Shown here piece after piece: positions 30,052 to 35,268 of a stretch of 64,000 bases of DNA (within the stretch, counting starts at the first letter, position 1; each line of letters begins with the position of its first letter). Origin of the DNA: a bacterium (GTDB lineage Bacteria; CAIWAD01); assembly GCA_030429345.1 (NCBI GenBank), contig JAUIFJ010000006.1, positions 62,001-126,000 on the forward strand, given 5' to 3'. The notes under the pieces are model-generated. The model saw only the letters and a program-made list of their open reading frames with translations. It made no database searches and was not told where the DNA came from. The translations under genes and the position numbers were made by a program.

Positions 30052-30720
30052 TCAGGGCCGGTCGTCCAGTTTCTTCCAGCTGATCACCGCCGAGCGGTGC
30101 TCTTCCGTGATCCGAATCCGCGAGGGCAGCCAGCGTCCGGCCGGGCTGCGGCGGAAGTCCTCGCAGCGTACGACAAGTTCCGGCGTGCGGAACTCGCTGC
30201 AGACGGCGCGCAGGCTGTCCAGTTGCCAGAGGGTGTCGCCGCGCGCGAAGCTCCTCCCGGCGGGCATGTAGACCGCTTCCGCAGAGGGCTGCCAGTCGCC
30301 CCAGAACCAGGGTCCCAGCTCTTCGGCTGTGCGCAGCTCGCCCTTGAGCAGGCGGCCGGGCAGGCCCTCCTCCACCAGGAAGAGCAGCGAGCGCAGCTCC
30401 TCGTCGGCCAGGTGCAGCTCGGGTTCGCCTGCCGTGCGCACTTCCAGTTCTCCCAGGCGTCCTCCCAGCGGCGTGCGCAGGGCCAGGTAGAGCCCGGCCT
30501 CCCGCGACCAGTCCCCGCTGATGCGCAGCTGCCCCTGGCCCATGCGGCGGCTCTGCAGGTAGAGCCTGCCCGAAAAAGCCAGGCGCTCCATGCCGCCCGT
30601 GTTCTCTTCCAGGTGCGCGCGCAGGGCCGCCTCGCTCCAGTCGCCGCGATAGAGCCCGTTGCGGGCGCAGCCTGCCAGCAGCAGGATGCCAAGCAGTAGA
30701 AGGCTTCGCAGGCGGATCAG
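30052..30720 (-). CDS. LolB/DUF4292-like outer-membrane lipoprotein, apparent CTG start
   Basis: 222 residues if translation begins at the CTG at 30720. That reading gives a complete lipoprotein signal: LIRLRSLLLLGILLLAGC, with the lipobox Cys at about residue 18. AAAGGAG ends five bases before the CTG, and the CTG overlaps the tex stop as CTGA, in line with the ATGA/GTGA junctions of its neighbours. No ATG, GTG or TTG occurs in frame in the signal region; the first ATG (30591) would remove the whole signal peptide. The mature part (FSGRLYLQSRRMGQGQLRI...) recalls LolB or DUF4292 lipoprotein-binding folds; function is inferred only. Confidence 0.7.
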   Translation of the reverse strand: MIRLRSLLLLGILLLAGCARNGLYRGDWSEAALRAHLEENTGGMERLAFSGRLYLQSRRMGQGQLRISGDWSREAGLYLALRTPLGGRLGELEVRTAGEPELHLADEELRSLLFLVEEGLPGRLLKGELRTAEELGPWFWGDWQPSAEAVYMPAGRSFARGDTLWQLDSLRAVCSEFRTPELVVRCEDFRRSPAGRWLPSRIRITEEHRSAVISWKKLDDRP

Positions 30721-33074
30721 CGCTTCTCCTTTCCCAGGGCCTTGCGCAGGGCATCCTGCAGGGCTCCCTGGGGAGCGGGACGCTCGCGCCTTCGCTCGCC
30801 GCCCTGGCCTTTCCCGCCCTCCGGCCGCTTGCCGGAAGCGGCCTGCCGTGTACGCCGGCCATTCGGGCGCGGGCGCTCGGGCGCTTCCTGCAGCGCCTTG
30901 ATCGAGAGCGAGATCCGCTGGCGCTCCAGGTCGACGTCCAGCACCTGGACCTGGACCCGTTCCCCGACCGATAACACCTCGACCGGGTGGTTGACGCGTT
31001 TGTGCGACAACTGGCTCACGTGGACCAGGCCGTCTTCCTTGAGGCCCACGTCGACGAAGGCGCCGAAATCCACCAGGTTGCGCACGGTGCCGTCGAGCAC
31101 TGTGCCGGGCTTCAGCTGCTCGAGGCTCAGCGCGCCGCTGCGCAGCATGGGCGGATCAAGAGCCGAGCGTGGATCACGTCCCGGCCGGGCCAGCTCGTCC
31201 AGGATGTCGCGCAGGGTCGGCAGGCCCAGCCCGACCGAGCCGGCGAGCTCTTCCAGGTCCTTCAGCTTCGGGGAATCGGAGCGCACGCGGCGCGCCAGCT
31301 CCTCCGGCGCGATCGCCTCTTCCTGGTAGCGCCGGGCCAGCTGGCTGACGGCCTCGTAGGCCTCCGGGTGCACGGCCGTGTTGTCCAGTTCGTTCTCGCC
31401 GTTCCGTATACGCAGGAAGCCTGCGCACTGCCGGAAGGCGGCAGGGCCGATCCCCTCCACCTCCATCAGCTGGTCCCGGCGGCGGAAGGCGCCGTTGGCG
31501 TCGCGCCAGGCGACGATGTTGCGGCTCGATCGGCGTGTGACACCGGATACCTTGGCCAGCAGGTGGGCGCTGGCCGTGTTCAGGTCGACGCCGACGGCGT
31601 TCACCGTGTCCTCGACCACTCCGCCCAGCTTGTCCCCCAGGCGTCGGCTGTCCACGTCATGCTGGTACTGTCCCACACCAAGGGATTTCGGATCGATCTT
31701 GACCAGCTCGGCCAGGGGGTCCTGCAGTCGACGCGCAATCGAGATGTTGCCCCGCAGGCTGGCGTCCAGCTCCGGGAACTCCTCGCGGGCCGCGTCGCTC
31801 GCCGAGTACACGCTGGCGCCGGCCTCGCTGACCACCGCGTACTGCAGCTTCAGCTCGTTCTCGCGGATCAGCTCGGCGAAGAGCTCCTCGCTTTCCCGCG
31901 AGGCCGTGCCGTTGCCGATGGCGATCAGCTCCACCTTGTGGGACTCGATCAGCTGCAGCAGGCGCAGCTTGGCTTCGCTCCACTTCTTCTTCGGTGGATG
32001 GGGATAAAGGGTGTCGCCTTCCAGGTAGCGGCCGGTTCCGTCGATCACCGCCACCTTGCAGCCGGTCCGGAAGCCCGGGTCCAGTCCCAGCATCACCTTG
32101 CCCGGCAGGGGCGGCTGCAGCAGCAGCTGTTTCAGGTTGGCGGCGAAGATTTCCAGGCTGTGGCTTTCCGCCGCTTCGGTCGCCTGGCGGCGCAGGTCGC
32201 GGCCCAGCGCGGGCAGGGCCAGCCGGTCGAGGGCATCCCGGGCCACCGAGCGGAACCATTCGGCGCGGGGGTGCGCCTCGTTCCTGAGCCAGGCCTTGAG
32301 CACGGAATCCAGGGGAGCGGCTTCCGTCCAGTCCAGCTGCAGCTTGAGCACTCCCAGCTTCTCGCCGCGATTGAGCGCCAGCACCTGGTGCGGCTTGAGG
32401 CGCGCAAGGGGCTGGCTGAACTCGGCATAGAGGCGGAACTTGGCCGCCTCCTTGTGCGTTTCGTCGGCCAGCTGGCTGGCGAGGGCTGCCTTGCGAGAGC
32501 CGCTCTCGCGCAGGCTGGCGCGCAGGGGAGCGTCCTCGTTGATCCATTCGGCCAGGATGTCGGCCGCGCCGGCCAGGGCCTCCTCGTCGTCGGCCGCTTC
32601 CCCGCGCCAGGCTTCCAGGCTCTCGCCAGGTTCCGGACAGGAGGCATCCGGAAGGTCTGCGGCCAGGTCCCTGCGCCCGCAGAGCTCCAGGGCCAGGGCG
32701 GCGGCCAAGGGCTCCAGCCCTTTTTCCCGGGCCACTGAAGCCCGCGTGCGCCGTTTGGGCCGATAGGGCAGATAGAGGTCCTCCAGCTCCTGGAGCTTGT
32801 CGCAGGCCTCGATGCGCTTCTGCAGTCCATCGTCGAGCTTGTCCTGCTCGGCAATGCTCTTCAGGATCGCGGCGCGCCGCTCTTCCAGGCTTTTCAGCCG
32901 TTCCAGGCCCTCTTCGATGGAACGCAGCTGCACCTCGTCCAGGGAGCCGGTCCACTCCTTGCGGTATCGGGTGATGAAGGGAATGGTGTTGCCTTCGGCG
33001 AGCAGGTCGGCCGCGCTCTGCACCTGCTGTTCACGCAGGCCCAGGTCCTGGGCCAGGCGGGAGATCGGATTCAT
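30717..33074 (-). CDS. tex: Tex family RNA-binding protein
   Basis: 785 residues, normal for Tex. The order of domains is clear: N-terminal helical Tex region (NTIPFITRYRKEWTGSLDE), the YqgF-like domain with VMLGLDPGFRTGCKVAVID, helix-hairpin-helix segments (NTASAHLLAKVSGV, LMEVEGIGPAAF), and an S1 domain from about residue 653 (LKPGTVLDGTVRNLVDFGAFVDVG). The C-terminal 60 residues are a basic, glycine/arginine-rich tail. Tex is a transcription accessory factor. The ATG at 33074 fits the family start (MNPISRLAQDLGL). Confidence 0.95.
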   Translation of the reverse strand: MNPISRLAQDLGLREQQVQSAADLLAEGNTIPFITRYRKEWTGSLDEVQLRSIEEGLERLKSLEERRAAILKSIAEQDKLDDGLQKRIEACDKLQELEDLYLPYRPKRRTRASVAREKGLEPLAAALALELCGRRDLAADLPDASCPEPGESLEAWRGEAADDEEALAGAADILAEWINEDAPLRASLRESGSRKAALASQLADETHKEAAKFRLYAEFSQPLARLKPHQVLALNRGEKLGVLKLQLDWTEAAPLDSVLKAWLRNEAHPRAEWFRSVARDALDRLALPALGRDLRRQATEAAESHSLEIFAANLKQLLLQPPLPGKVMLGLDPGFRTGCKVAVIDGTGRYLEGDTLYPHPPKKKWSEAKLRLLQLIESHKVELIAIGNGTASRESEELFAELIRENELKLQYAVVSEAGASVYSASDAAREEFPELDASLRGNISIARRLQDPLAELVKIDPKSLGVGQYQHDVDSRRLGDKLGGVVEDTVNAVGVDLNTASAHLLAKVSGVTRRSSRNIVAWRDANGAFRRRDQLMEVEGIGPAAFRQCAGFLRIRNGENELDNTAVHPEAYEAVSQLARRYQEEAIAPEELARRVRSDSPKLKDLEELAGSVGLGLPTLRDILDELARPGRDPRSALDPPMLRSGALSLEQLKPGTVLDGTVRNLVDFGAFVDVGLKEDGLVHVSQLSHKRVNHPVEVLSVGERVQVQVLDVDLERQRISLSIKALQEAPERPRPNGRRTRQAASGKRPEGGKGQGGERRRERPAPQGALQDALRKALGKEKR

Positions 33075-33238
33075 CCGCTGCTTTCTGTTGTGTACCCTCT
33101 GGGGGCGATGCTGATTGAAGCCGCCAAAATAGAAATCCGCACCGAGAAGCTGCCGATCATCCATGCGGGAGGCGGCCGGGCTTTGAGAGTCGACAGGGCA
33201 TTGTTTCCTTTGCCCACAGCAAGGAGCCATACCTCTAT

Positions 33239-33598
33239 ATGAAGTTCTTCAAGAAACTGATCGGCCTGGGCAATCGGCCCCAGGAACTGTACGACGGCGA
33301 GCTGGAAGCCCTGCTGCAGGAGGAGCAGCGCCCCGTGGTCGTGGAATTCTACGGCCATGGCTGAGCGGGCTGCCGGACGGTGTCCGGCCTGCTCTACCAG
33401 GTGCGCGAGCTTTTCGGCGAGGAGGTGATCGTCTGCCGCGCGGATGTCGCCCGCACACCGGACACGGTGGCGGAGCAAGGCATTCGCGGCATTCCCACGA
33501 TCCAGGTCCACCACCGCGGCCGCCGCGTGGCCAGCTACACGGGACAGATCAAGCCGCCCGACGTGGTCGAGACCGTGGAAGCCATCCTTCCCCAATAG
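33239..33598 (+). CDS. Thioredoxin-like protein with probable selenocysteine (in-frame TGA) in a UxxC active site
   Basis: 119 codons with one in-frame TGA at 33362-33364 (codon 42). Before it: PVVVEFYGHG; after it: AGCR. Aligned with the thioredoxin signature F-W-A-P-W-C-G-P-C-R, the TGA falls exactly on the first active-site cysteine and the second cysteine is kept, giving U-A-G-C. The downstream half is an intact thioredoxin C terminus with the cis-proline loop GIRGIPTIQVHHRG. The frame is open on both sides. ATG at 33239 has AAGGAG about 12 bases upstream. A SECIS-like hairpin follows the TGA directly. Selenocysteine thioredoxins are known in a few bacteria. Other readings are a nonsense mutation or sequencing error; the SelA-D machinery is not in this window. 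Confidence 0.8.
33362..33394 (+). promoter_or_regulatory. Candidate bacterial SECIS element
   Basis: A two-part hairpin starts at the TGA itself. A lower stem of six pairs joins GAGCGG (33363-33368) to CTGCTC (33389-33394), with one G-T pair. A three-base bulge (GCT) follows, then a perfect 7-bp upper stem GCCGGAC (33372-33378) with GTCCGGC (33382-33388), and an apical loop GGT (33379-33381). The loop begins 17 bases from the U of UGA and has G in its first two positions, both within the published bacterial SECIS pattern. It would bind SelB and direct Sec insertion. Confidence 0.65.
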
Positions 33599-33936: not shown

Positions 33937-34794
33937 ATGAGTCTGCGGATCAACCACAACGTCCTGAGCATGCGGGCCCACCGCAACATCTTCAACACGA
34001 GCCAGCAGTTGGATCACGCGGTGACCAGGCTCTCCTCCGGATTGCGCATCAACACGGCGCAGGACGACCCGGCAGGCATCGCGATCTCCGAACGCTTCCG
34101 CTCCCACATTGCCTCCATGGAGATGGCCGAGCGCAACGCGTCCTACGCCATCAACATGTTTGCGACGGCGGAAGGCGCCCTGGGCGCGATCGACGACAAG
34201 TTGATCCGCATGAGGGCGCTGGCCATCGAGGCCTCCAACGGCACCCTGTCGAGCGTGGATCGCAGCTTCCTGAACGTCGAGTTCCAGCAGCTGAAGAGCG
34301 AGATCGACCGAATTGCCAACGTGACCAACTACAACGGCATCAACATGCTGGACGGCACCTACTCGAACGGCGCCAGCGGTGCCGGCGGCCAGGGCGTGAA
34401 GCTGCACATCGGCATCAACAACAACTCCCTGGAAGACTTCTACTATGTGCACTTCGCCGACATGCGGGCCAGCGCGCTGGGCATCACGGCCGCTGTCGAC
34501 CTGACGAACACGGCCAACAGCCAGTCCGCGATCGGCCTGCTGGACAGCGCGATCATCACCAAGGACACGGAACGCACGCGCGTCGGTTCCTTCGTATCAC
34601 GCCTGAACTACACGGTCAACCACCTGCAGATCAGCCGCGAGAACGCCGTCGACAGCGAATCGACCATCCGCGACGCCGACATGGCCGAGGAGATGAGCAA
34701 CTTCACGCGGGCCCAGGTCATGATGCAGAGCGGCGTCGCCATGGTGGCGCAGGCCAACCAGGTCCCGAACATGATGGCCGGCCTGCTGCAGTAG
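33937..34794 (+). CDS. fliC: Flagellin
   Basis: 285 residues, a short flagellin made of the conserved D0/D1 ends with a small central region. N-terminal signature: LRINHNVLSMRAHRNI, LSSGLRINTAQDDPAGIAISERFRS, and NYNGINMLDG. C-terminal signature: RENAVDSESTIRDADMAEEMSNFTRAQVM, ending MMAGLLQ. It is the filament subunit, exported by the flagellar type III system. AGGTGAG precedes the ATG. The gene is monocistronic, with its own promoter and terminator, and no other flagellar gene is in the window. Confidence 0.96.
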   Translation: MSLRINHNVLSMRAHRNIFNTSQQLDHAVTRLSSGLRINTAQDDPAGIAISERFRSHIASMEMAERNASYAINMFATAEGALGAIDDKLIRMRALAIEASNGTLSSVDRSFLNVEFQQLKSEIDRIANVTNYNGINMLDGTYSNGASGAGGQGVKLHIGINNNSLEDFYYVHFADMRASALGITAAVDLTNTANSQSAIGLLDSAIITKDTERTRVGSFVSRLNYTVNHLQISRENAVDSESTIRDADMAEEMSNFTRAQVMMQSGVAMVAQANQVPNMMAGLLQ

Positions 34795-34899: not shown

Positions 34900-35268
34900 G
34901 AAGAACTCGCACGGAGGGCACGGAGTAGACAGAGAGCACGGGGGTATACAGACATCGGGGTTCGCGCGCGGAGACGCGGAGGGGCTGGAAGGGGAAGAGG
35001 GCCAGGTTGCCGCGTTCTGCCGGTCAGTGGCCCCCGCGAAGACGTTGTCATCCCGTTCTCCAAGGCTGTCATCCCGCGGCTTGACCGCGGGATCGGTCTC
35101 ATGGCCGAAGGCCGGAGAACGAACCAGGGATGGGAATGGCACACGGAAGCAGGCCCTTCGGTCTGCGACGCGGAAAACGATCCCGCGGTCAAGCCGCGGG
35201 CTGACAGTGGGGGTTCCCCCTCTCCTGTGCTCTCCGTCTTCCCCGTGCCCTCCGTGCGAGCTCTTCCT
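34900..35268. repeat. Non-coding element A with terminal inverted repeats
   Basis: The element is bounded by about 45-base inverted ends: GAAGAACTCGCACGGAGGGC at 34900 and its inverted counterpart (CCCTCCGTGCGAGCTCTTC) ending at 35268, roughly 85% identical. Inside are two hairpins of the form ATCCCGCGGCTTGACCGCGGGAT (35071-35093, and inverted at 35179-35200). It fills the space between the flagellin terminator and the UDG gene and has no credible gene. A sister element lies at 43880. Confidence 0.75.

Follow-up and report, generated by a model that had tools for sequence, protein, structure and literature searches.

A short gene in the window (the whole stretch of 64,000 nucleotides that was analysed) almost certainly encodes a real small redox protein whose active-site UGA codon is read as selenocysteine (Sec), as judged from sequence. 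The frame at 33239-33598 of the plus strand reads MKFFKKLIGLGNRPQELYDGELEALLQEEQRPVVVEFYGHG[TGA]AGCRTV...GIPT...ILPQ*, with a single internal stop, the TGA at 33362-33364 (GUAGC), and a terminal TAG at 33596-33598 (Table 1). A preliminary description had called the product a probable new selenocysteine-containing thioredoxin. The Sec reading is supported by the evidence given below; the word new applies to the member and not to its kind, as Sec-thioredoxins with a UxxC motif are already an established bacterial family (PMC1794560, PMC13188914). Since descriptions of such proteins (UxxC, PF00085) date back to 2006, we are highly confident that the finding adds a solid member to a known bacterial family, and this member comes from an uncultured lineage.

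Table 1. Features of the seleno-thioredoxin gene and its flanks (positions in the window)
Feature	Position	Strand	Remarks
Possible ribosome-binding site AAGGAG	33221-33226	+	12 nt before ATG (long spacing); by sequence reading
Seleno-thioredoxin gene	33239-33598	+	119 residues, Sec at codon 42, stop TAG; PF00085 match, conserved start
In-frame UGA, codon 42	33362-33364	+	first position of U-A-G-C; aligns on first Cys of CxxC
Putative bacterial SECIS hairpin	33363-33394	+	apical loop GGU at 33379-33381; -21.0 kcal/mol
Resolving Cys45 (TGC) of UxxC	33371-33373	+	invariant in 5/5 clade members
cis-Pro-Thr (P86 T87) of thioredoxin fold	33494-33499	+	invariant in 5/5 clade members
Strong stem-loop after stop codon	33624-33661	+	-23.2 kcal/mol, z -4.8; no clear T run

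A thioredoxin fold with UGA at the active site

With Cys put for the TGA, a profile search matched residues 18-113 to PF00085 (Thioredoxin; E=1.7e-14; score 54.1 bits, cut-off 23.5). Among solved structures, the closest relatives are also thioredoxins, for example 2yn1, and in the alignment to them the TGA falls on the first active-site Cys. The profile match and this alignment bear out the initial observation that the TGA sits exactly on the first Cys of the CxxC motif, with the second Cys and the cis-Pro intact. A structure prediction from a three-row alignment reproduces the succession of strands and helices typical of thioredoxins (mean pLDDT 82). The start of the protein, M/V-x-F-x-K-K-L-I-G-L, is kept in three relatives. 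No signal peptide is apparent at the N-terminus when it is read by eye, and the protein is probably cytosolic.

Standard translation yields a 41-residue product that lacks the active site, just the truncated gene that automated annotation had been expected to call. Gene tables would thus miss the seleno-thioredoxin in every member of the family.

Selenocysteine machinery in the same genome

The organism's own genome (G000; a draft of 4.24 Mb in 92 contigs, 98% complete) contains a tRNA-Sec scoring 54 bits against an Rfam gathering score of 47, which ARAGORN reports as tRNA-SeC(tca), with anticodon TCA. It also contains selB (307 bits), selA (499 bits) and selD (341 bits), each above its curated cut-off. 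All of selA, selB, selC and selD, for which a search had been proposed, are therefore present, and an absence of Sec machinery did not apply. SelD is listed elsewhere with a UxxK Sec motif (PMC9312934). The selD gene of G000 (L017, G000:C46:5003-5920, minus strand) is interrupted by a single TGA, within TCG-TGA-AAKF (TCGUAAKF), which is the usual Sec site of SelD; a well-known selenoprotein of the organism is thus also encoded with UGA. On another contig, G000:C71:48927-49178 (about 1428 in L092) encodes another likely selenoprotein: in a frame of roughly 400 residues, a hydrophobic N-terminus is followed by a thioredoxin-like domain with FVDFQTEW-TGA-SWC (UxxC). Counted in this way, the lineage would have at least two or three redox proteins that contain selenium.

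Elsewhere in the window TGA is a normal stop, as had been claimed: it ends seven of the 17 long open reading frames examined, not all of which are verified as genes, and both the Tex and the glycosyltransferase frames, which Pfam verifies, end in it. It is hardly likely, then, that the UGA is read as a residue other than Sec, such as Trp, or by read-through with a near-cognate tRNA. UGA is a regular stop in genes of G000, the codon lies exactly on the catalytic Cys and has a Cys homologue (see below), and the same genome holds the full Sec machinery together with a Sec-containing SelD.

Conservation of the UGA in relatives

Three genomes of the same family and another genus (G001, G002 and G003) carry orthologs that are 44-45% identical to the protein and have the active-site context FYSNT-U-SGC, so that TGA stands at codon 42 in all four family genomes, across two genera. 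Two of these three orthologs correspond to the public contigs DYSB01000029.1 and CAIWAD010000176.1, recovered by a contig search with a four-row alignment; a contig search with the single seleno-thioredoxin protein as query gave no match. On the 3′ side of the TGA, every pairwise comparison of the genomes has its highest rate of difference at the third codon position (0.25/0.20/0.54 for G002 vs G003), and this excess of third-position change indicates that the frame is still under protein-level selection. All three relatives have selA; a tRNA-Sec above the cut-off is present in G001 and G002, and none above the cut-off was found in the draft genome G003.

These patterns bear directly on the reading of the gene as a pseudogene or truncated gene, in which the TGA would be a genuine nonsense mutation that ends the product after 41 residues. 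The 41-residue standard translation without an active site is what such a reading predicts. However, the same TGA recurs in four genomes of two genera whose proteins share only 44-45% identity, and the 3′ side is conserved with change biased to third positions; a dead gene would not retain the TGA and the conserved 3′ side together. We thus consider truncation very improbable, and the random decay downstream that had been named as a sign of it is not seen in the relatives, where the frame is kept on both sides. Still less probable is a sequencing or assembly error at 33362 with a true codon TGC or TGT, which the draft state of the assembly (92 contigs) might suggest, but which independent assemblies of relatives with TGA at the same codon contradict. 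The retention of both the TGA and the downstream frame in independent genomes therefore argues against error and decay alike.

A cysteine homologue

The search of relatives for Cys or TGA at this codon, proposed at the outset, turned up both: TGA in the three family genomes, and TGT (Cys), within CPPC, in a homologue (L024) from a class-level relative, G004. This genome nonetheless has its own tRNA-Sec. L024 is 28% identical to the Sec protein and shares its N-terminal signature. In a tree of 53 thioredoxin sequences, a single clade (support 100/98) unites the four Sec proteins with the Cys protein of G004, and the canonical thioredoxins of these genomes fall outside it; the exact branching order is uncertain, because L024 sits on a long branch and the bootstrap had not fully converged. 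Unlike the Sec protein, L024 has Cys for Sec and no hairpin, and its gene adjoins those for an ordinary thioredoxin and a pyridine nucleotide-disulfide oxidoreductase. Such a Sec/Cys homologue pair means that selenium's role could be compared side by side.

The tandem arrangement of the Cys homologue with its two neighbours lies at about 2756-3435 of L094 (G004:C30), and the oxidoreductase is a possible reductase partner. G004, with its tRNA-Sec, also has a TlpA-like frame with an active-site TGA (FFACW-TGA-PTC; L095, G004:C96, from about 106).

A hairpin beginning at the UGA

The mRNA of the seleno-thioredoxin can form a hairpin that begins inside the UGA and has a GGU triloop on a stem of 5-6 bp. 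For comparison, the protein was recoded synonymously 3000 times, with the codon usage of the long open reading frames of the window. Only 0.4-0.6% of these recodings reach the stability of the native sequence over 33-42 nt. For the relatives at 36 nt, the corresponding figures are 2.3% (G001), 4.6% (G003) and 7.4% (G002), and for the Cys homologue of G004, which has no hairpin, 94% of recodings fold at least as well; these percentages are not mutually independent. The excess stability in the relatives is thus moderate at 36 nt, and it is smaller or nil at longer lengths. Against a dinucleotide shuffle, the hairpin taken alone is not significant (z -1.0), whereas in the comparison with synonymous recodings it is.

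Consensus bacterial SECIS elements (bSECIS) have a loop of 3-9 nt with a G in its first two positions, an upper stem of 4-16 bp, a spacing of 16-37 nt from the UGA and an energy of at most -7.5 kcal/mol (PMC13188914). The loop, stem, first-position G and energy of the hairpin fit this model, whereas its loop begins 14 nt after the UGA, slightly short of the 16-37 nt. A bSECIS prediction over 33362-33400 had been proposed as a check; a strong hairpin does lie directly after the codon, with an approximate fit to the consensus model only. G001, G002 and G003 fold into partly different hairpins, and no compensatory changes were found in any pair among the four family hairpins. Their consensus fold is in another register than the gene's own hairpin and has no covariation, so covariation was not used as support. 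From its sequence and folding, the hairpin at the UGA is likely a SECIS.

Comparison with known thioredoxins

Sec-thioredoxins numbered seven in a 2006 survey, with hosts that include Treponema denticola, Geobacter spp., Carboxydothermus and Anaeromyxobacter (PMC1794560). They are listed under PF00085 with UxxC (representative WP_010956703.1; PMC13188914) and placed under 'experimentally verified' (PMC9312934). Our protein shares with them PF00085, Sec at the first CxxC position and bacterial Sec decoding. Compared by description only, it and its orthologs differ in having GUAGC or TUSGC, without the Trp and Pro of WCGPC, and an RPxELxDG N-terminal signature. Neither of the NCBIfam Sec-thioredoxin models SaoT (NF040730) and HUIPC (NF047660) was hit in a family search at E up to 1. 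With canonical TrxA (TIGR01068) the protein has the fold, the UxxC/CxxC position and the cis-Pro in common, but it scores 49.5 bits, under the cut-off of 96.8, and belongs to a separate clade. The lack of the Trp and Pro of WCGPC suggests that its redox potential and partners are unlike those of TrxA.

We give about even weight to the idea that these proteins constitute a lineage-specific seleno-thioredoxin subfamily (GUAGC/TUSGC, RPxELxDG), which would have arisen when Sec replaced Cys inside a single uncultured class, would act on a substrate of its own, separate from the general thioredoxin pool, and would use a compact SECIS that starts at the UGA with a spacing below the consensus. The understanding of selenoproteins in general is unchanged by this protein.

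Among 386 genomes of some 260 families, a survey whose result is a lower bound, only the four family genomes have an active-site TGA among the thioredoxin matches listed. Other flags of a TGA inside the frame, across about 390 genomes, were also checked: in 17 of them an ordinary CxxC thioredoxin has its TGA at the end of the domain or outside it, and the flag in G035 is of the same sort. One further active-site TGA, UIYC in the distant genome G043, came from a separate earlier search. There, a thioredoxin with KSDY-TGA-IYC (L087, G043:C145:2529-2831, minus strand) is in frame with a dockerin-like repeat and is possibly an independent Sec-thioredoxin.

Proposed mechanism

On the sequence evidence, the gene very probably encodes a small, likely cytosolic thioredoxin-fold selenoprotein with a UxxC redox centre, whose UGA would be read by SelB and Sec-tRNA under the guidance of a hairpin. 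The sequences themselves show the fold family, the conserved active-site UGA, the Sec machinery, the Cys homologue and the hairpin; how Sec would enter the protein in vivo, which reductase would pair with it, which way electrons would flow and what the substrate would be are inferred. In this scheme, SelB with Sec-tRNA(UCA) would insert selenocysteine at the UGA of 33362, directed by the hairpin that begins at this codon. By analogy with thioredoxins, Sec42 would attack as the nucleophile, and Cys45 would supply the resolving thiol. The UxxC centre would then reduce a disulfide or an oxidised substrate, and the protein itself would be re-reduced by a thioredoxin-type reductase. Compared with Cys, Sec has a lower pKa and exchanges faster, and it can help against oxidative inactivation.

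Genomic context

The own genome also encodes ordinary thioredoxins (WCGPC or similar) and a full thioredoxin reductase, so the seleno-thioredoxin is an accessory rather than the main thioredoxin. Its gene is solitary, flanked by a divergent Tex gene (30717-33230, minus strand) and a flagellin gene (33937-34794, plus strand), and the divergent Tex neighbour is also found at the ortholog in G001 and G003. The stem-loop after the stop codon is possibly a terminator; a consensus terminator scan did not call it. Downstream of the flagellin gene, at 35050-35250 of the window, lies an imperfect repeat that contains 'cccgcggcttgaccgcgggatc' and similar phrases in the two orientations.
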